Shown piece by piece: positions 2,829 through 13,479 of a DNA stretch of 49,726 nucleotides (its first letter is position 1; each line of letters begins with the position of its first letter). Under the pieces are notes generated by a model that saw only the letters and a program-made list of their open reading frames with translations, was not told the origin of the DNA and did not search any database. Made by a program: the position numbers and the translations under genes. The stretch is from positions 1-49,726 of the forward strand of contig JAKAXT010000004.1 of NCBI GenBank assembly GCA_021816425.1, written 5' to 3'. The DNA is from Pseudomonadota bacterium. Lineage in GTDB: Bacteria; Pseudomonadota; Gammaproteobacteria; Acidiferrobacterales; Acidiferrobacteraceae.

Positions 2829-4192
2829 TGCGCATCCATATTCTCGGAATTGGCGGGACGTTCATGGGGGGGCTGGCCTTGCTGGCCCGGGCCTCGGGTT
2901 TCGATGTCACGGGATCCGATCGCGGGGTCTATCCCCCGATGAGCGATCAGTTGCGGGCAAGCGGCATTGCGCTCACCGAGGGCTATGACGCGCTCCCGCG
3001 GCCCGCCCCCGATCTCGTCGTCATAGGCAATGCCCTGTCGCGCGGCAATCCGGCCGTCGAGGAGACGCTGAACTCCGGCATCCCCTACGTGTCGGGGCCC
3101 CAGTGGCTGGCCGAGCAGGTGCTGCGCGACCGCTTCGTCATCGCCGTGGCCGGCACCCACGGCAAGACCACGGTCACGAGCATCGTCGCCTGGATCCTGG
3201 AGGCGGCCGGGCTCGATCCGGGATTCCTGATCGGCGGCGTGCCTCAGGACTTCGGGGTGTCGGCGCGCCTCACGAAATCGCGTTTCTTCGTGGTCGAGGC
3301 CGACGAGTACGATACGGCCTTCTTCGACAAGCGCGCCAAGTTCGTCCACTATCGGCCCCGGGCCGTGATCTTGAACAATCTGGAGTACGATCATGCCGAT
3401 ATCTATCCGGATCTGGCGTCGATCTCCCGCCAATTCCAGCATTTATTGCGGATCGTGCCGGGTACGGGCCTGATCGTCGCGAATGGCGCCGATGCGGCCA
3501 TCGCCGATGTGCTCGCCGCCGGCGCCTGGACGCCCATCGAGTACTTCTCGCGCCCCGATGGTTGGGAGGCGGAGCTGTTGACCGCCGATGGCAGCGCGTT
3601 CCGGGTCCGCTTGCGCGGCACCGAGCTCGGGACCGTGCGCTGGGGGCTCGCCGGCCGTCACAACGTTGCCAACGCGCTCGCGGCCTTGAGCGCCGCACGC
3701 TTCGCCGGGGTCGCCCCGGAGACGGCCTTGCAGGCGCTTGCAAGCTTCCGTGGCGTGAAAAGACGGCTCGAGATGTTCGGGAATGCGGGGGGCGTCACGG
3801 TCTACGATGATTTCGCTCATCACCCGACCGCCATAAGCGCCACGATCGAGGCCCTGAAGGCGCGCGTGGCCCCGGCGCGGGTCCTTGCCGTTCTGGAGCC
3901 GCGTTCCAACACCATGCGCCAGGGCGTGCACCGCGAGACGCTCGGTCCCTCGCTTGCCGGGGCGGACGCGACCTATGTCTATGCCCCGCCGGATATCGGT
4001 TGGGACGTCGAGGCGGCGGTCACGGGGGGGCCGGATCGCCGCGCGCACGTCTATCACACGCATGAGGACCTGATTGCGGGCCTGGTGGCCGATGCCCGCG
4101 CGGGCGACCATGTGCTCATCATGAGCAACGGCGGCTTCGCCGGCCTGCACGGCCGGCTGCTGGCCGCGTTGGGGGCCGCCCCTACCTCTTGA
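2828..4192 (+). CDS. mpl: UDP-N-acetylmuramate:L-alanyl-gamma-D-glutamyl-meso-diaminopimelate ligase
   Basis: 454 aa Mur ligase; MRIHILGIGGTFMGGLALLAR, AGTHGKTTVTS P-loop, VVEADEYDTAFFDKRAKF, DDFAHHPTAI. Confidence 0.95.
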   Translation: MRIHILGIGGTFMGGLALLARASGFDVTGSDRGVYPPMSDQLRASGIALTEGYDALPRPAPDLVVIGNALSRGNPAVEETLNSGIPYVSGPQWLAEQVLRDRFVIAVAGTHGKTTVTSIVAWILEAAGLDPGFLIGGVPQDFGVSARLTKSRFFVVEADEYDTAFFDKRAKFVHYRPRAVILNNLEYDHADIYPDLASISRQFQHLLRIVPGTGLIVANGADAAIADVLAAGAWTPIEYFSRPDGWEAELLTADGSAFRVRLRGTELGTVRWGLAGRHNVANALAALSAARFAGVAPETALQALASFRGVKRRLEMFGNAGGVTVYDDFAHHPTAISATIEALKARVAPARVLAVLEPRSNTMRQGVHRETLGPSLAGADATYVYAPPDIGWDVEAAVTGGPDRRAHVYHTHEDLIAGLVADARAGDHVLIMSNGGFAGLHGRLLAALGAAPTS

Positions 4193-4724
4193 CCCCGCCT
4201 CCATGGATGTACTGGGAGAAGAGCGCCACATCGTTGCTCACGCGCCGGAACAGGTGGTCGAGGCTGATCACCGCGTGCTCGAGGAGGTTCACCGCGATAT
4301 AAGGGTGCTCCACGCGTATGCGTTTGTATTTGGCGCGTGACAGCAAAAGCACGCGCGTGTCGTCGGACTTGGCGCGCATGCGCGCCGAGCGGGGCTTGCG
4401 GTCGAAAAACGACATCTCGCCCATGAGCTCGCCCGCCGTCATGCGCCCGACCTCGCTCTCCTGGCCGCCGTCGTCGTAATAGAGCGCCACCTCGCCGTTC
4501 ACCACGAAGTAAAGGGCCTCGCCGACCTCACCTATGTCGGCGATGGTCTCGTTCTTGCGAAACTGCACGAGTTCCGTGTAATCGAGCAGCGTCTCGACCT
4601 CCTTGATCGTGAGCGACTCGCACAGATACTGGTGGGTGAGGAACGTTGCCAGCTCGACCTTGGATTTGCCCGTCATTTCCTTAATCTCCGACGCTCGGCC
4701 TCTTTCCCATAGGATGGCCGACAT
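4182..4724 (-). CDS. Cyclic nucleotide-binding (CAP_ED) domain protein
   Basis: NETIADIGEVGEALYFVVNGEVALYYDDGGQESEVGRMTAGELMGEMSFFDRKPRSARMRA is a CAP effector domain. An alternative start at 4676 (MTGKSKVEL) is possible. No HTH seen. Confidence 0.85.
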   Translation of the reverse strand: MSAILWERGRASEIKEMTGKSKVELATFLTHQYLCESLTIKEVETLLDYTELVQFRKNETIADIGEVGEALYFVVNGEVALYYDDGGQESEVGRMTAGELMGEMSFFDRKPRSARMRAKSDDTRVLLLSRAKYKRIRVEHPYIAVNLLEHAVISLDHLFRRVSNDVALFSQYIHGGGVKR

Positions 4725-5056
4725 CCTCTCCGGGCTGACAGGCCCCAGTCCCGCGGTCCGCTCGCAAGCGGCCGGGATTGGCTGCGCCGCCCGCCCGGCC
4801 TTGCCGCCCCCCGGGTCGCTTCGGCGGGCTCCGCCGTCCGCGCGACGGGCCGTGGCGCGCCCCTTGCAAGCCCTCCCCGGGTCCCGCCCCCCGGCTGCCC
4901 GGCGGTCGGTCTCGCGGCACGGACAGTATAGGATGCTTCGGGTGCTCGTACTATCCTGACTCTATCGAACGCCTGCCCCGCAACGGGCCATTTGGGGACC
5001 ACAAAAGCGGCTACAATGGGGGCGGTACCATAAAATTTGTTCAAGGAGATGGCGTG

Positions 5057-5692
5057 ATGAGGAGACAGTTGGCCCTGGTCGTAGGTCTGGCCCTGCCTTT
5101 GGCGATGACGGGTGCGCAGGCTGGCGTGGTCGAGAGCATGGAATACGTCCGGGTGAGCCCCGCGCAACCCGTACCCCCGGGGCCCAAGATCCTCGTGCAG
5201 GAGGTGTTCTGGTATGGTTGCCCGCATTGCTTCCACCTGGAGCCGCTGCTGAACAAGTGGCTCGCCCATAAGCCGGCGGACGTCACGTTCGAGCGGCAGG
5301 CGGCGGCGATCAGCCCCTATTGGCTTCCGCAGGCACGCGCCTTCTTCGCGTTCAAGGACCTTAGCCTCTTGAGGGCCCTGCACGACAAATTCTTTAATGC
5401 CATCCATGTGCACCACGAGGTGCTGGACAATGCCGCGACGATATCGGCGTGGGTGGCCCACCACAGCCACGTGAGCGCCGCGCGCTTCACGAGCGTCTAC
5501 CGCTCCTTCGCCGTGGGACTTGCGGTGCGCAAGGCCCGCCAACAGCAGAACGAGGAGGGCATACACTCCGTGCCGACCTTCATAGTGGACGGGCGTTACC
5601 GTACGAACCCAAGCCTTGCTGGCGGACGGCGCCAGCTGCTGCGCGAGGTCGACTACCTCGTGCACAAGGCGCAGCACGCGGAGACCCGTTAA
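5057..5692 (+). CDS. dsbA: Thiol:disulfide interchange protein, DsbA family
   Basis: Signal peptide MRRQLALVVGLALPLAMTGAQA; active site FWYGCPHCFHLEPLL; VPTFIVDGRY cis-Pro loop. RBS AAGGAGA upstream. Confidence 0.9.
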   Translation: MRRQLALVVGLALPLAMTGAQAGVVESMEYVRVSPAQPVPPGPKILVQEVFWYGCPHCFHLEPLLNKWLAHKPADVTFERQAAAISPYWLPQARAFFAFKDLSLLRALHDKFFNAIHVHHEVLDNAATISAWVAHHSHVSAARFTSVYRSFAVGLAVRKARQQQNEEGIHSVPTFIVDGRYRTNPSLAGGRRQLLREVDYLVHKAQHAETR

Positions 5693-5694
5693 CG

Positions 5695-7326
5695 GTGAAC
5701 GCGGCGCAGCTTTTCGTCCGCTGCCTCGAAAATGAAGGGGTCGAGTACATCTTCGGGATACCGGGCGAGGAGAACCTCGCCCTCATGGACGCCCTGCTCG
5801 AGTCGCGGATACGGTTCGTGACCACCCGTCATGAGCAGGGCGCGGCGTTCATGGCCGATGTCTACGGCCGGCTCACCCATCGCGCCGGCGTGTGTCTGGC
5901 CACGCTCGGTCCCGGGGCCACCAATCTCGTTACGGGGGTCGCGGACGCCAACATGGACCGCGCCCCGCTCGTCGCCATCGCCGGACAGGCCTCGACCCTG
6001 CGTCTCCACAAGGAGTCTCACCAGGTCCTGAACCTCGTGAACCTCTTTGCGCCGATCACGAAGTACGCCGTCCAGGTGCTGGAGCCGGAGACGGTGACCG
6101 AGGTGGTCCGCAAGGCCTTCAAGCTCGCGCAGATCGAGAAGCCGGGGGCCTGCTTCATCGATTTCCCCGAAAACATCGCGGGCCGTCCCGCCGATGGAAC
6201 CCCGCTCAAGGTGCAGGCCGCCCCGGCGCCCTATCCGGCGGCCTCGCAGGTCGCGGAAGCGGCGAGCGTCATCGCGGCCGCCAACTTCCCCATCATCATG
6301 GCCGGCAACGGGGTCGTGCGCGGGCGCGGCTGCGATGCGCTCGTGCGCTTCGCCGAGAAGCTCAACATCCCGGTCGCCACCACCTTCATGGCCAAGGGCG
6401 CGATACCGGCGTCCCACCCGCTGTGTCTCGGGACCGTGGGCCTGCAGGCGCACGACTACATATCGTGCGGATTCGATCGCGCCGACGTCATCATTTGCAT
6501 AGGGTACGACCTCGTCGAATACCCGCCGGTGCTCTGGCACAAGACGGCGGACCGCCAAATCGTGCACATCGACTTGCGCGCCGCCGAGGTCGACGCCCAC
6601 TACATCGTCACTTCCGGCGTCATAGGCGATTACGCCGTGACCTTGCCGGCCATCGCCGAGCGCGTGGCAAGCCGCCCGCCCGAGCGCTTCGCGAATCTCC
6701 GCGAGCTGATCCGCCGCGAATTGAACGGCGGGCGGCACGACAGCGCTTTTCCCCCCAAGCCTCAGCGGGTGGTCAGCGATCTGCGCGACGCGCTGGGGCC
6801 CGAAGACATCGTCGTCTGCGATGTGGGCGCCCACAAGCTTTGGATGGCCCGGCTCTACGATGCCGAACGCCCCAACACCTGCATCATCTCGAACGGCTTC
6901 GCGAGCATGGGCATCGCCGTGCCCGGCGCGGTGGCGGCGGCCCTCGCCGCCCCCGGGAAGCGCATCGTGGCGGTGACGGGCGACGCGGGCTTTCTCATGA
7001 ACTCCCAGGAGATCGAGACCGCCATGCGCCTCGGGGTCGCGTTCGTGGTGCTCATCTGGAACGACGGTTGTTACGGTCTCATCGAATGGAAGCAACAGCT
7101 GCATTACCAACGAACGGGCAATGTGCGCTTCACGAACCCGGACTTCGTCCAGTACGCGCACGCCTTCGGGGCCCAGGGTCATCGCATCGAACGCGCCCAG
7201 GACCTGCTGCCGACCTTGCGCCGGGCGCTCGCGACGCCGACCGTGACGCTGATCGATTGCCCCGTCGACTACACCGAGAACATCCGGCTCACAGATGAAC
7301 TGGGCCAGATGATCTGTCCGACCTGA
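5695..7326 (+). CDS. Thiamine-diphosphate enzyme, acetolactate synthase large-subunit-like
   Basis: GTG start; FGIPGEENLALMDAL, TTRHEQGAAFMADVYGRLT, GPGATNLVTGVADANMDRAPLVAIAGQ, C-terminal TPP site GDAGFLMNSQEIETAMRLGVAFVVLIWND. Confidence 0.87.
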   Translation: MNAAQLFVRCLENEGVEYIFGIPGEENLALMDALLESRIRFVTTRHEQGAAFMADVYGRLTHRAGVCLATLGPGATNLVTGVADANMDRAPLVAIAGQASTLRLHKESHQVLNLVNLFAPITKYAVQVLEPETVTEVVRKAFKLAQIEKPGACFIDFPENIAGRPADGTPLKVQAAPAPYPAASQVAEAASVIAAANFPIIMAGNGVVRGRGCDALVRFAEKLNIPVATTFMAKGAIPASHPLCLGTVGLQAHDYISCGFDRADVIICIGYDLVEYPPVLWHKTADRQIVHIDLRAAEVDAHYIVTSGVIGDYAVTLPAIAERVASRPPERFANLRELIRRELNGGRHDSAFPPKPQRVVSDLRDALGPEDIVVCDVGAHKLWMARLYDAERPNTCIISNGFASMGIAVPGAVAAALAAPGKRIVAVTGDAGFLMNSQEIETAMRLGVAFVVLIWNDGCYGLIEWKQQLHYQRTGNVRFTNPDFVQYAHAFGAQGHRIERAQDLLPTLRRALATPTVTLIDCPVDYTENIRLTDELGQMICPT

Positions 7327-7357
7327 GCCGCGCCGCTTGCGCGGGACCCGGGTCGTG

Positions 7358-7600
7358 TCAGCCTCGTCCGCGGCCGCTTTGGTCGGGGCCGCCCGCCACG
7401 AGCAGCAGCACGCCCCCCACGACCACCGCGCCGGCCCCGGCCCATAGCGGGATGTCGACGTGGCGTTTGTGTTTCACGGACAGGGATACGGGCCCGAGCT
7501 GCGCCTCCTTGGTCTTGCGCGTGTAACTGAAGCCGCCATAGGCCGCGCCCAGGATCCCCGCGATGACGAGGACGATCGCAAAGAGTCTCACCGGGTTCAT
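7358..7600 (-). CDS. DUF3185-type small membrane protein
   Basis: 80 aa, two TM segments: MNPVRLFAIVLVIAGILGAAYGGFSYT ... DIPLWAGAGAVVVGGVLLLV. Confidence 0.7.
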   Translation of the reverse strand: MNPVRLFAIVLVIAGILGAAYGGFSYTRKTKEAQLGPVSLSVKHKRHVDIPLWAGAGAVVVGGVLLLVAGGPDQSGRGRG

Positions 7601-8073
7601 GGTGTCCTTCCATCCATGTCTGAATGGCGCGAGGCTACCACAGCCGTCACGCCCTCCGGGCCGTCCGAACGTCCGAGAGGCTCGCAGCCCTGCTGGCGTT
7701 CCGCCCAGGTCCGCGCCCGCCCCGGCTTCCCATCGCCATCCGCCATGGCGGAATACCGTTCTTTATAAGGCAGAAACCGCCTCTGGCGCTTAGCATCAAG
7801 AATGAAGAGGCCCGCCGGCCGGATTGCGCGGCTCACCCGAAAGCACCCTATGCCTCCGCACCGCATGGAGATCCGCTCGATGATGACGCCGGCCTCCCGC
7901 GCTGATCGTGGATACCTCGGCCCTCATCGTCTTCCCCGATTGCCGCCCTTGTGCGCTGGCCGAGGCCGGTTCCGGGCCGCGTCCCTTCCGGGGTGTGGGG
8001 TTCGGACACACGGCCTTGGCCGCCGCCCCGCCTCCGAGCGCCGGCGCAGGCCGTGCGGCAAGGCGCCGCGAGC

Positions 8074-8841
8074 TCACGCCCCGCCGCGCTCACGGCCCGA
8101 CCCCCTCCGTGGCGCCCGCGTGCGCATTTCCCGCTCCCTGCGCCGCCACCGCAGCCTGAGCCAGGGCGGTCGCCTGCCCCCGAAGGGGCGGGCGGCGAAG
8201 GCCCGCAGGGCTAGCCGCCCTTGCGAAAGGCGGGTCACGACGCCGCGCCCCGCCAGCACGCAGGCGGTGGTAGGCACGCTCGCGCCCCCGCGGTTGTGCG
8301 GCATGGCATCCGTCACGCCTTGACGTTCGCAGTGCCGCCGAAAGAGCGCGCGCAGCGCGGTAGGCGTCATTCCCGCGGGCGACGACCCCTTCGGGAGCCC
8401 CCGTCCTCGGGCGCCCGTCCACGGCGGACTCACGAGGGCGTGGGCGTGAAGGTTCCGCTCCCGATCGTAGTGGATCGACCAGTCGACGGCGCACGCCTGC
8501 GTCACGAACGCCTCCTCGAGGAAGCCGCCTACGAAGGCCGCATGCGCGGATAAAAGCCGGCCGCGCGGGAGCCCCATGATGATCTCGCAGGCGAGATTGG
8601 GCCGCCCCCAGGAGGCGCCGGACTCCACCGCATTCCATAGTATTTCCGGGTCGATAAAATCCTCGGGGGCTCCCGCGGGCAGCGCGATCTGCGACCACGC
8701 GAGACCGGGGCGGCCGGAAAAATCATAAGTCCTTGCGCGGGCGCGGTCGGTAAGCCGCCGTCGCCCGCCATAGGCGGCGCGAGCCACGAGCCCCGGTCCC
8801 CGGTCGGCCCGCAGTCGTCGTACGGAAAGCGCAGGGTGCAC
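8074..8841 (-). CDS. MobA/MobL (MOBQ)-type relaxase domain protein
   Basis: GTG start; N-terminus HPALSVRRLRADRGPGLVARAAYGGRRRLTDRARARTYDFSGRPGLAWSQIALP matches the AAYR..E.L.D....YDY pattern; WNAVE; three-His HUH motif IHYDRERNLHAHALVSPP. Short, 255 aa. Confidence 0.7.
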   Translation of the reverse strand: MHPALSVRRLRADRGPGLVARAAYGGRRRLTDRARARTYDFSGRPGLAWSQIALPAGAPEDFIDPEILWNAVESGASWGRPNLACEIIMGLPRGRLLSAHAAFVGGFLEEAFVTQACAVDWSIHYDRERNLHAHALVSPPWTGARGRGLPKGSSPAGMTPTALRALFRRHCERQGVTDAMPHNRGGASVPTTACVLAGRGVVTRLSQGRLALRAFAARPFGGRRPPWLRLRWRRREREMRTRAPRRGSGRERGGA

Positions 8842-8866
8842 GTGGTCCCCGGCATATCCAGGATAG

Positions 8867-8887
8867 GCAGGCGATGATACCGCCTGC
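8867..8887. promoter_or_regulatory. Perfect 7-bp inverted repeat between relaxase and coupling-protein genes (candidate oriT hairpin or operator)
   Basis: GCAGGCG-ATGATAC-CGCCTGC at 8867-8887, upstream of both divergent genes and overlapping a -10-like TAGCTT (8888-8893). Confidence 0.4.
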
Positions 8888-8917
8888 TAGCTTCGCCTTT
8901 TATCAGGAGAATCCCGG

Positions 8918-10534
8918 ATGCCCATCGAACCCCGCACATGGGCGCGCGCCTTACGTAAGCGCGCGGACAGGAGGCGCCTGCGGGCCCTGCTCGATCTGGG
9001 CGAGGAGCTCGAGGCGCGCGGTCTGCTGGACGAGGCGGTCCGCCTGGCGGCGGGGCAGGGGGGCCGCCCCGCCCCGGCCGCGCGCCCCGGCGATCCCCGG
9101 GCCGCGCCCTGGGGCGCAGGAGCGCAGGCGGCGCTCGCCAGGCCGGTCCCGACCCGCGCCCCGCGCGCCCGCGCGCTTCGCGCGCTGCTCGTCCTCTGCG
9201 TGCCGCTTGCGCCGCTCCTCCGTCTTTTTATACCGGGGCGCCGCGCAAGGACGGCCAGCCCCGGCGGCGCGCGCCTGTGGCTCGGGGCGGCCGAGGGTCT
9301 TCTGCACCGTCGCGGCCTCTGGCAGGACAAGGGGCGCCGGGCCCTCGTCCTCCACGCCGCGGACCTCGGCCAGAACCTGCTCATCCTGGGCGGCATAGGC
9401 TCGGGCAAGACGACGTCCGTCATTCAGCCGGCCCTGCTCCAGTGTCTCGCCCAAGGCATGGGCGGCCTCCTGTTCGACATCAAGGGCGACTTCGGCATGG
9501 CCGCCGCCGCCCTTGCCAGGGAGGCGGGGAGAGGGCTCGTCGTCATAGGGCCCGGACGACGCGCCTTCAATCTCCTGCGCGGACTCACCCCGGAGGCCGC
9601 CGCGGGCTTCCTGAAGTCGGCCCTCCTGCTCAACGGCGCGCCCGGCGACCCCTTTTGGACAGAGACCGCGGTGGAGCTTTGTCGCAACGCCCTGGGCGTG
9701 CTCTCCTTCCTGCCCGATCGCTACAGCCTGGCGGGCCTCTACGACTACCTTTTCCGGGATGACGCGCGCGCCGAGTGCGACCGGAGATTGCGCGACGAGG
9801 CGCCCGGCCTTGCCCCCGGGGCCCTGCGGCTCCTGCGCGGCTACCAGTCCTACCACGAGGGCGTCTTCACGCGCTTCGATGCCAAGGTGGTGGCCGGCGT
9901 CCTCGCCAGCGCGGCCCAGGTCCTCACCCCCTTCACGCACCCCGATCTCATCGACGCCTTCTGTCCACCCCGTGATGCCGTCGCCATCGAGACCCTGGGT
10001 TCGGGCGCGGTCTTCCTCGTCGACCTGCCGCTCGCTGTCTGGGGCATCGGCGCCAAGGTCGTTTACACGTTCATCAAGTTGCGGTTCTTCCAATATATGC
10101 AAAGGCGCCCCGTAGCCGAACGTTCCCGCCCCGTCCTCTTTCTGTGCGACGAGTATCAGGAGGTCGTGAGCGCCAACAAGGACGGGCTCTCCGATCTCAA
10201 TTTCTGGGACAAGGGCCGCGCCTTCGGCACCGTGGGCATCATATCCGCGCAATCGATCGCAAGCTTCTACGCGGCCCTGGGCGATCGCGATCTGGCCGAC
10301 ACGCTCTTGCAGAATTTCCGCCAGAAACTCTGCTTGCGCACCGAGGACTGGCATACCGTACACTTCTTTGAACGTCTTCTCGGGCGCCCCGCCGACCGAA
10401 CACGGCGCCCGCGTCCGCTCGTGCCCGCGGCGCTCATGCGGCGGCTTTATCGGCGCCAAGCCCTGGCCGTGGTCTCGGTCGGGGGAGAGGCCGTTGAAGA
10501 GATCGTCGACCTGCCGGCCGTGTTCGTCGATTAG
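8918..10534 (+). CDS. Type IV coupling protein (VirD4/TraG/TraD-like)
   Basis: Walker A ILGGIGSGKTTSVIQPAL, LLFDIKGDFG, Walker B VLFLCDEYQEVV, IISAQSIASFY; N-terminal hydrophobic segment; RBS AGGAGA before the ATG. Confidence 0.87.
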   Translation: MPIEPRTWARALRKRADRRRLRALLDLGEELEARGLLDEAVRLAAGQGGRPAPAARPGDPRAAPWGAGAQAALARPVPTRAPRARALRALLVLCVPLAPLLRLFIPGRRARTASPGGARLWLGAAEGLLHRRGLWQDKGRRALVLHAADLGQNLLILGGIGSGKTTSVIQPALLQCLAQGMGGLLFDIKGDFGMAAAALAREAGRGLVVIGPGRRAFNLLRGLTPEAAAGFLKSALLLNGAPGDPFWTETAVELCRNALGVLSFLPDRYSLAGLYDYLFRDDARAECDRRLRDEAPGLAPGALRLLRGYQSYHEGVFTRFDAKVVAGVLASAAQVLTPFTHPDLIDAFCPPRDAVAIETLGSGAVFLVDLPLAVWGIGAKVVYTFIKLRFFQYMQRRPVAERSRPVLFLCDEYQEVVSANKDGLSDLNFWDKGRAFGTVGIISAQSIASFYAALGDRDLADTLLQNFRQKLCLRTEDWHTVHFFERLLGRPADRTRRPRPLVPAALMRRLYRRQALAVVSVGGEAVEEIVDLPAVFVD

Positions 10535-10593
10535 GCCGAAGAGGGGATGCCAGGCGCGGGCCCGCGAGGCTACGATCCTCCGAGGAGGATGAC

Positions 10594-12555
10594 GTGGCCG
10601 TGAAGCGCTTACCGTTATGGGCCAAGATCGCGACCGCCGTGGTCCTCCCGCTCGTGGTCGTCATCGGGGTCGCGATGGCCTTCGCGCCGCCGCTCCTGAA
10701 GCACTTGATCGAGCGCGAAGGGAGCGCCAAGCTAAACCGCCGCGTCGTCATCCATGGGCCCCTCAGCATCGATTGGTCGCTCACCCCTCGTATCACGCTG
10801 AATCGCCTCACGGTCGCGAACTCGCCGTGGGCTAAGGGGCCCATGGTCGCCGTGCGGCAGCTGCGCGTCAGGGTCGCCTTGGTGCCATTGCTCCAGGGAC
10901 ACTTAGTCCTGCCCTCGCTCGTCCTGCGCCACCCCATAGTCCATTTGTACAAACCGACACCCACCCGCGCCAATTGGATTTTCGCGAAGCCTAAGACGGC
11001 GGCCCACGAACCGCACGCCGTGCCGCGCATAGGCCGCCTTGTCATAACGCGGGGAGACATTACGGTCCGCGACGCCCCGGCCTCCACGGACCTCGCCTTA
11101 AACGTACGCAGCGTCGAGCCGTCCACGCGTCTGCTGCTGTCGGGGCACGGCCGCTACGAGGGGTCACCCTTCACGTTGACGGGGGCGCTAGGTTCACCCG
11201 CCAAGGTCGAGAACGACGAGAGCCCTTACCCCGTGCTCGTCACGGTCCGCATCGGCCGCTTTTGGGCGCGCGTAGACGGCACCTTGATTGCGCCCATGGC
11301 CTTGAAGAAGGTCGATATTCACATCCTGCTCGACGGCTCGGGGCTCGGGCGCGTCAACAAGGCCGTCAATCTCCCGCTGCCGCAGACGGGTCCCTTCAAG
11401 CTATCGGGCCAGCTCACGCGCCATGGACAGACCTGGAATCTGACCCATTTCCACGGCCTCGTCGGCAAGAGCGATCTCGAGGGCACGATGAGCGTCACGC
11501 CTGGCCACCCGATCCTCATGCACGCAAACCTCGTGTCCCGTCACCTGAATTTCAAGGATCTCGCCGGTTTCGTGAAGGCCAAGCCGAAAAAGGTCGGCGG
11601 TCACGTCAAGGTCGCAGTCCCTGCACAGAACGCGAAGAAGGCGCTCCCGGACAGGCCTTACAGGCGCGGCCATCTCAGGGACCTGGACGCCAACGTCGTC
11701 TTTCGCGGCGAGCATGTCTATGCCTCCCACATGCGCATACGGGACCTCTACGCCCATCTCATCATCCGGCACGGCGTCGTCCGCCTCGCGCCCTTGAACT
11801 TCGGCGTGGCGGACGGTCTCGTTGCGGCGACCTATACGATGGATACGTCGGGCCCTCTCTATCGAACGGACCTGACGGCCACGGCGCGCGGGCTTCGGCT
11901 GCGACTATTGCTCCCGAAAATCCAGTTCAAGGCCGCCGGGACCGGCAAGATCGGCGGCCGCCTGCACTTGAGGGGCCGCGGAAATTCGATAGCGGCCCTG
12001 TCTGCGGACGCGACCGGTCATTTAGGTCTTGCCCTTGCAAACGGCTCTATAAACAACCTTTATGTTGCTTTGGCCCAGCTGCATGTGGGTAATGCGGCCC
12101 TGGACTGGATCTCGGGCATGAAGCAGGAGCGCATCCCGTGCGCGGTAATACGCTTGGGCGCACGCCATGGCCTGGTGAAGACCCGCACCTTCCTGATCGA
12201 CACGCCGTCTGCCAACATTCTTGGGCGGGGCACGGTCAATATGAAGAGCCAGGCGCTCCATCTGACTGTGTACACGAGACCTAAGCACATCACGATCGTG
12301 AGCGCGCGAGGGCCCTTGCACATCGGGGGCACGCTCAAAAAACCCACCTTCAGCGTCTCGCGCACCGCCCTCCTAGAGCGGGCCGGAGCCGCTGTGGCCC
12401 TGGGCGCGCTTCTCACGCCCGCCGCCGCGCTCCTGCCATTGATCGACACGGCGCCCGGACACAAAGTCGACTGCCCCGCGCTCTTGAACAACGCGGGCCC
12501 GAAGGCGCGCGCGGAGGCCTTGAGGAGAATCCACAAGCACGCAAGCGGGCATTGA
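10594..12555 (+). CDS. AsmA family protein
   Basis: 653 aa; N-terminal TM anchor; GPLSIDWSLTPRITLNRLTVANSPWA; C-terminal LHIGGTLKKPTFSVSRTALLERAGAAVALG. Confidence 0.85.
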   Translation: MAVKRLPLWAKIATAVVLPLVVVIGVAMAFAPPLLKHLIEREGSAKLNRRVVIHGPLSIDWSLTPRITLNRLTVANSPWAKGPMVAVRQLRVRVALVPLLQGHLVLPSLVLRHPIVHLYKPTPTRANWIFAKPKTAAHEPHAVPRIGRLVITRGDITVRDAPASTDLALNVRSVEPSTRLLLSGHGRYEGSPFTLTGALGSPAKVENDESPYPVLVTVRIGRFWARVDGTLIAPMALKKVDIHILLDGSGLGRVNKAVNLPLPQTGPFKLSGQLTRHGQTWNLTHFHGLVGKSDLEGTMSVTPGHPILMHANLVSRHLNFKDLAGFVKAKPKKVGGHVKVAVPAQNAKKALPDRPYRRGHLRDLDANVVFRGEHVYASHMRIRDLYAHLIIRHGVVRLAPLNFGVADGLVAATYTMDTSGPLYRTDLTATARGLRLRLLLPKIQFKAAGTGKIGGRLHLRGRGNSIAALSADATGHLGLALANGSINNLYVALAQLHVGNAALDWISGMKQERIPCAVIRLGARHGLVKTRTFLIDTPSANILGRGTVNMKSQALHLTVYTRPKHITIVSARGPLHIGGTLKKPTFSVSRTALLERAGAAVALGALLTPAAALLPLIDTAPGHKVDCPALLNNAGPKARAEALRRIHKHASGH

Positions 12556-12579
12556 GGTCCGGGACGCCGGGGCGCGCTC

Positions 12580-13281
12580 TTACGGCTTCACGCCCTCGAC
12601 GATCAGGAAATCCGAGCGCTCCAGCGCCCCTATGTCGGGTATGCGGCTCACCCCGAAGGCCTTTCGGGCGACATCCTGGAAGCCGCAGCGCCTAAAGAGG
12701 TCCACGAGCTGGATCTCGTCGTACTGCCACTTGTGAAAGTGCCCGAAGGACTTGAGACCGGGCGGACGCGTGCAGATGTCATCGAAGTACATCTGGACGT
12801 GCCGGCGCAGGCGCGCGGCGTCGCGCGCGCCCGGTTCCCGGGCCCGCTCCTCATAAAATATCCCCAGGTAGTTTTCCCAGAACTCCACCCCGTCCGGGAC
12901 GCAGAGCCGCAGGACCCCGCCCCTCTTCAGGACGCGCAGGCACTCCCGCGTGAGGCGCAGCGCGTCCGCGTACTCGAAATGCTCCCACACCTCGCCCGCA
13001 TAGATCGCCGCAATCGATTCGTCGGCCCACGGAAGGCGCTTGCGCAAATCGTGGTGGACTATGCCCGGCCCAAACGCGCTTGCCCGCAGAAGTCCCAGAC
13101 GTACCAGCAGGCGGTCGGCGAAGGCGGCATGCGCGACGAGCCAGGACCTGCGGCTTCCGTCGACATTGACCCAGCCCTTGGGCATCACGGGTCCACAGCC
13201 CAGGTTGACGCGCGGCCCGTATGGCAGGGCGCGCGCGCCGACGCTCGTGCGGGCGCCCGACCGTTCCGCTACTGTCGACAT
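12580..13281 (-). CDS. Class I SAM-dependent methyltransferase
   Basis: RVNLGCGPVMPKGWVNVD, AIYAGEVWEHFEYADALRLTRECLRVLKRGGVLRLCVPD. Start chosen at 13281 (MSTVAERSG). Confidence 0.8.
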   Translation of the reverse strand: MSTVAERSGARTSVGARALPYGPRVNLGCGPVMPKGWVNVDGSRRSWLVAHAAFADRLLVRLGLLRASAFGPGIVHHDLRKRLPWADESIAAIYAGEVWEHFEYADALRLTRECLRVLKRGGVLRLCVPDGVEFWENYLGIFYEERAREPGARDAARLRRHVQMYFDDICTRPPGLKSFGHFHKWQYDEIQLVDLFRRCGFQDVARKAFGVSRIPDIGALERSDFLIVEGVKP

Positions 13282-13479
13282 AGGACCTCCCTGTCGAACG
13301 GGGCAAGCCCCGTCTAGCCTGCTCGTTCGACTATCCATGAAGCGAGCGGACGGGTCCATGCGACCTTGGGAGGAGTCGGTCCGTGCTTGCGCGCCACGCC
13401 GTGGGGCGCGGGGGGCCGGGCGCGGGCGCCGCCGCCACGATCGGCGCGGGTCGAGGCACGGTCTTCGGGCACGCCGCGC

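Follow-up and report, generated by a model that had tools for sequence, protein, structure and literature searches.

A relaxase and coupling-protein pair at a fixed chromosomal locus of Acidiferrobacter and its possible link to a separate VirB-type pore operon

The window, a 49,726-nucleotide stretch of DNA from a member of the Acidiferrobacteraceae, contains two divergently transcribed genes encoding a MOBQ-type relaxase and a VirD4/TrwB-type coupling protein (T4CP), the starts of which are 76 bp apart (Table 1). The relaxase matched the Pfam family MobA_MobL (PF03389) over residues 19-138 (1e-22; 81.5 bits against a curated cut-off of 26.7), with only positions 4-123 of the 224 in the profile covered. 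The NCBIfam models TraA_Ti (1.9e-21) and MobQ (3.3e-20) gave sub-threshold matches, and a sequence search retrieved the structurally solved nicking enzyme NES (4ht4, 6e-10). When the AlphaFold model of the relaxase was compared with the PDB, NES (1.5e-11) and R1162 MobA (2ns6, 3e-6) were the only matches with E < 0.001. By profile, motif and fold, the protein is a MOBQ (MobA/MobL) relaxase. Staphylococcus NES and R1162/RSF1010 MobA share its fold and the HUH/Tyr layout, but they mobilise plasmids from a mapped oriT, whereas the Acidiferrobacter gene is chromosomal and the end of its domain is shortened. Residues Y24, H124, D126, N130, H132 and H134 are invariant across 15 species, far beyond chance, and the HUH motif has the form H124-x-D-x3-N-x-H-x-H134. 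A preliminary description of this DNA had proposed a compact relaxase with an intact HUH motif and an AAY tyrosine region, a proposal that was to be dropped if no MOB profile recovered the protein. The open reading frame, the motifs and the MobA_MobL profile all bear the assignment out, and this objection does not apply because a MOB-type profile did recover it. The relaxase profile PF03432 had no match in the same genome, and the protein is the sole MobA_MobL relaxase in each of 15 genomes, always at this locus.

Table 1. Features of the relaxase/T4CP locus and of the VirB-type operon on another contig of the same genome (positions refer to the window unless a contig is named).
Feature	Position	Strand	Remarks
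MOBQ-type relaxase	8074-8841	-	255 aa, GTG start; without the helicase domain of plasmid relatives
Putative catalytic tyrosine Y24 codon (AAY)	8770-8772	-	invariant in 15 species
HUH motif HYDRERNLHAH, residues 124-134	8440-8472	-	invariant positions in 15 species
Intergenic block between the divergent genes	8842-8917	.	probably divergent promoters and ribosome-binding sites
VirD4/TrwB-type coupling protein (T4CP)	8918-10534	+	538 aa, ATG start
T4CP Walker A GGIGSGKTT, residues 158-166	9389-9415	+	conserved in 15 species
T4CP Walker B acidic pair D411, E412 in FLCDEYQE	10148-10153	+	no variation within the family or among plasmid relatives
One flank of the pair			Mur-ligase-like, cNMP-binding protein, DsbA-like and acetolactate-synthase-like genes (names read from sequences)
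Other flank of the pair			AsmA (Pfam) and methyltransferase (read from sequence), in most of the 15 genomes
VirB2-B3-B4-B5-B6-B8-B9-B10 operon	contig C119 (L103), ~6740-13390		own genome (G000); operon of divergent sequence
Gene order of the C119 operon	contig C119		VirB2-type pilin, VirB3, 770-aa VirB4, VirB5, VirB6, VirB8, VirB9, VirB10
Genes after VirB10	contig C119		barrel-like and Ig-like lipoprotein genes
Flanks of the C119 operon	contig C119		bioC-like and rpoH-like genes, one on each side

The T4CP matched the TrwB_AAD_bind family (PF10412; 4.6e-9, above the curated cut-off). The earlier view of a full-length VirD4-type ATPase facing the relaxase holds for the length, the ATPase domain with its Walker motifs and the divergent arrangement, but the N-terminal membrane region is reduced to a single stretch of marginal hydrophobicity around residue 90, which has a proline at its centre, and the value for this stretch is below 1.6 in some species. 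In contrast, the T4CPs of the plasmid relatives have a long hydrophobic N-terminus, as read from their sequences. The start of the T4CP (positions 8918-9070) encodes a conserved Arg-rich helix, RRRLRAL..GEELEARGLL, which by eye resembles small mobilisation proteins. The idea that a lost mob protein had been fused to the T4CP N-terminus, plausible by eye, was rejected after an hhalign probability of 0.2% and no match in Pfam. The only PADLOC match, of mad8 to the TrwB-like end of the T4CP, was judged cross-family. A PHROGs search gave nothing of note, and no T4CP relatives were found in a scan of viral contigs.

The pair occupies a fixed chromosomal position. One full-length T4CP was found in each of the 14 Acidiferrobacter genomes searched (14/14; membership by record titles) and in the sister-genus genome G014, and none of this kind in 130 other relatives; G012 carries an extra T4CP fragment at a contig end beside its full-length copy. 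The relaxase showed the same 15-genome distribution among the 31 genomes searched. In all 15, the two genes are side by side, divergent, single-copy and at the same place, which in G005 lies within a single 3.4-Mb contig. The further sister genome G016 probably carries the module too: its contig stops ~100 bp past the synthase gene, and the contig-end bases, which read ...RRRPGWLRVRLRRLARARRRRLGRGRGD, resemble the G014 relaxase C-terminus at the same site (RRWPPWLRLRLRRLERTRVRVRARGRGD). The contig of G017 ends within the synthase gene, and in G015, G018 and G024, used for empty-site comparison, the synthase gene has other neighbours and no module. In G001 and G010 (L053 and L054, ~4000-9000), ~5 kb separates the small neighbour gene from the relaxase and holds a Sel1-like repeat protein, an MFS-like transporter and other genes. 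With regard to the neighbours that had been called ordinary, Pfam supports AsmA but not the DUF3185 label given to an 80-aa protein.

The att-like boundaries that comparison with relatives was expected to expose did not appear: the site is the same in 15 genomes, and the longest direct repeat flanking the module is 11 bp. No tRNA gene was found in the window and no integrase among the neighbours inspected, and the GC content of the module is host-like (0.71 against 0.69 for the window). Of the features of an integrative mobilisable element, neither variable insertion with repeats or a tRNA site nor an oriT adjoining the relaxase gene was seen, and the module is not a mobile element at present. 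Conservation as a core chromosomal locus without mobility had been named in advance as evidence against the preliminary description, and it tells against the mobile reading. The other option in that description, a domesticated DNA-processing pair, is supported by the core locus in the whole genus and the sister genus, the constant neighbours, the single copy and purifying selection.

The pair is under purifying selection, with the relaxase as the looser partner. The dN/dS values were 0.12-0.18 for the T4CP and 0.14-0.49 for the faster-evolving relaxase, compared with 0.03-0.06 for the neighbouring synthase and 0.22-0.27 for AsmA where it was long enough. The G009 relaxase has lost E86 and part of its C-terminal region. 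Interspecies distances of the T4CP track those of the synthase (Spearman 0.94), as vertical descent predicts. If the pair were the functionless, decaying residue of an element integrated long ago, the shortened relaxase and the missing mob gene and oriT core would be explained, but this reading is already disfavoured by the selection test and by the reading frames and motifs, which are intact in all 15 species, and we consider it highly improbable.

The closest plasmid-borne T4CPs are encoded by the 20-kb plasmid 5 of Aquicella lusitana (NZ_LR699118; 56% over the core) and a Ca. Bandiella plasmid (NZ_CP110822; 52% over the core). Their modules likewise consist of a MOBQ-type relaxase divergent from a T4CP, but they are plasmid-borne, the relaxase is a TraA relaxase-helicase of ~890-980 aa, a separate gene for an 84-88-aa 'mobilization protein' precedes the T4CP, and a clear oriT core is present. 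Homologues of all three proteins (TraA, mob, T4CP) were also found on the metagenome contigs L058 and L061; in L058 (4920-8347), two tandem T4CP homologues, ~45% identical to the T4CP of the window, follow the mob gene. More distantly, in pRA2 of Pseudomonas alcaligenes (NC_005909) and related plasmids a related T4CP is divergent from the relaxase genes and no T4SS is listed in the stretch read, but the relaxase is of the MOBP TraI type with a MobA accessory protein and the T4CP is ~41% identical.

In the plasmid-type modules, an inverted repeat followed by TATAAGCGYGCACT adjoins the traA start, without mismatch in 4/4 (L094 17070, L095 5249, L058 3661, L061 6147). We take this to be the layout of a MOBQ oriT, as in RSF1010-like oriTs. 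The core is identical across very different hosts and each time lies between the divergent traA and mob/T4CP genes. At the 15 Acidiferrobacteraceae loci, no convincing match to this core was found from -2 to +1 kb of the relaxase start, the best matches having 3-5 scattered mismatches. The genus intergenic block of ~80 bp is well conserved, with a mean column identity of 76% in an alignment of 12 species. Within the window, matches to an RSF1010-type nic consensus and to the Aquicella-type oriT core were at or near chance level. An intergenic inverted repeat, gcaggcg/cgcctgc, was not kept in other species (by eye), so it is not claimed as an oriT. An oriT recognisable as in the plasmid relatives thus appears to be gone from the chromosomal module, and a changed or distant site is possible.

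Compared with the plasmid modules, the chromosomal one has no helicase, no mob gene and no recognisable oriT core, and its T4CP lacks part of the membrane region; next to the four plasmid-type modules it reads as a trimmed version. An ancestor of Acidiferrobacter and the sister genus may have captured a mobilisable-plasmid module (traA - oriT - mob - T4CP), which would then have been trimmed. The suggestion of a stripped mobilisable element therefore fits the origin of the pair, given that plasmids carry modules arranged in the same way, but it does not describe the pair as it is now, with a fixed site, no flanking direct repeat above 11 bp, no tRNA and host-like GC.

The preliminary description had found no T4SS, which is correct for the window; the genome, however, has a VirB2-B10 operon on contig C119, located by the recommended search elsewhere. 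A genome without a pore was first suggested by searches with PF03135 and PF11130, which found nothing; this was overturned when the TrbI (VirB10) profile PF03743 matched in seven genomes and a walk along the neighbouring genes revealed the operon. Its pilin matched TrbC/VirB2 (PF04956) at 1.4e-5, slightly under the curated cut-off, VirB4 matched a TraC-F-type profile at 5.6e-12 (as did 8/8 family members tested), and VirB10 was recognised as a homologue of the proteins that the TrbI profile had matched in G004 and other genomes. The pilin, VirB4 and VirB10 (the last in relatives) were therefore identified by profile and the other VirB genes by position, these being, with the exception of VirB5, also homologous to genes of an operon on a plasmid of Ca. 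Tenderia electrophaga (CP013100). Profile searches of the PDB with VirB4 gave nothing, and its AlphaFold model was too poor for use (pLDDT 43). Judging from VirB2, VirB4 and VirB10, a predicted conjugation-type T4SS is encoded in the same genome as the pair.

Relatives of the C119 operon occur in other gammaproteobacterial families as well as on the Tenderia plasmid. The latter operon has the same gene order, with homologous VirB2, B3, B4, B6, B8, B9 and B10, but it is plasmid-borne, has its own T4CP gene adjoining the pilin gene, and no MOBQ pair was seen with it. Within the Acidiferrobacteraceae, the VirB4 gene is present in 17 of 18 genomes and missing only from G015, and its dN/dS is 0.06-0.09. 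In G005, where both loci lie on one contig, VirB4 is at 0.35 Mb and the relaxase/T4CP pair at 3.34 Mb. Like the module, the pore is chromosomal and vertically inherited in the whole genus and the sister genus.

Three observations suggest that the two loci probably belong together. The first is complementarity in the T4CP: a T4CP gene lies directly upstream of the pilin gene in 4/8 operons read from the wider family, and none is present in the seven Acidiferrobacteraceae pore operons read. The T4CP of the pair and those of the wider-family operons fall into one protein superfamily (hhalign probability 97, E 4e-11). Second, the T4CP of the pair is the only TrwB-type T4CP found with PF10412 in G000, G002, G003, G004 and G008, which is not proof, since this profile misses Tenderia-type T4CPs and another T4CP is possible. 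Third, the pair is absent from G015, the one genome of the family that has no pore, a co-absence of little statistical weight because it represents a single branch. Against the link, genomes of other families (G021, G026, G078, G092, G059 and G062) carry the pore without the T4CP of the pair.

We favour, with a probability of about 0.58, the reading that a DNA-export machine of the conjugation type has been fixed on the chromosome in two halves, of which the pair is the one that processes DNA. The presence of pair and pore, each at a fixed spot, in every Acidiferrobacter genome searched suggests that the cell took over a plasmid DNA-transfer machine. In the proposed mechanism, a chromosomal site would be nicked by the relaxase, which would remain attached to the 5' end via Y24. 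The captured T4CP would serve the pore operon that has no T4CP gene of its own, taking the relaxase-DNA complex and pumping the strand into the VirB2-B10 pore. The cargo would be cellular DNA and its movement outward, with the chromosomal strand leaving the cell into a neighbour or the medium. More tentatively, at somewhat below even odds, Acidiferrobacter would possess a complete cell-owned conjugation machine at two core loci that donates or releases chromosomal DNA, a bacterial equivalent, with a relaxase of its own, of Ced in archaea. Points against the favoured explanation are that no oriT was recognised, the T4CP membrane region is weak, the relaxase evolves fast, and it is eroded in G009.

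As a rival explanation, an immobilised mobilisation module could move chromosomal DNA through the T4SS of visiting conjugative elements instead of the core VirB pore, in keeping with the plasmid relatives, which are mobilisation modules that include a T4CP but adjoin no T4SS in the records read, and with the other conjugation genes of some genus members, such as a TrwC-type relaxase and a TraD-like T4CP in G005. This appears unlikely: the pair persists in species for which no second TrwB-type T4CP was found, an oriT core can no longer be recognised, and a core VirB operon is at hand. The TrwC-type relaxase and TraD-like T4CP sets of G005 (L090, L091) have no standard VirB4 match and are probably integrative elements. 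Slightly less credible still is domestication for a task completed within the cell, without export, such as interfering with incoming plasmids, processing ssDNA, or replication or repair. The loss of oriT, mob gene and helicase and the reduced T4CP membrane region would fit this case, but the better conserved partner is the T4CP ATPase, whose known role is delivery to a pore, and a pore is present in the same genomes. Alternatively, the T4CP and the VirB pore could secrete proteins, for example toxins against rivals, with the relaxase as a bystander. This agrees with the weaker constraint on the relaxase and its erosion in G009, but it is improbable given the invariant catalytic residues of the relaxase in 15 species and a pair that is always together and divergent.

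In bacteria, conjugation machines are seen as belonging to plasmids and integrative elements. In the gonococcal genetic island, a well-studied example of a chromosomal T4SS that secretes ssDNA, the relaxase TraI and the coupling protein TraD are required for secretion of ssDNA (PMC4207684), and by analogy export in Acidiferrobacter would work in a similar way. Both cases involve a chromosomal T4SS that needs its own relaxase and coupling protein (for the latter two in Acidiferrobacter, as proposed here), but the gonococcal system is a single F-type island with another relaxase class, present in some strains only, whereas in Acidiferrobacter the relaxase is of the MOBQ class and the genes form two distinct core loci shared by the whole genus. 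For archaea, it has been argued that conjugation machinery was domesticated to exchange cellular DNA; the Ced/Ted systems import DNA and have no known relaxase (PMC9905601). These systems resemble the one described here in that conjugation machinery is fixed on the chromosome of an extremophile (PMC9905601), and differ in the missing relaxase, the import of DNA and the smaller number of VirB parts.

No type IV secretion or relaxase system of Acidiferrobacter was found in the titles or abstracts searched, with subscription journals outside the scope. Each protein family is known, and the new element is the combination of a trimmed mobilisation module and a separate pore operon, both as core loci of a bacterial genus. 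If the favoured reading is true, a genus-wide, vertically inherited two-locus system in extreme acidophiles makes domestication testable in a bacterium. It would also mean that a plasmid mobilisation module can lose its oriT, accessory protein and helicase and yet be retained by selection. In addition, the results bring to notice a family of VirB operons, one of which, in the public record of the Tenderia plasmid, has every gene labelled 'hypothetical'. The VirB4 proteins of the Acidiferrobacteraceae have an unusual Walker A motif, TGAGKG, with no Ser or Thr after the Gly-Lys, in all 12 sequences read.
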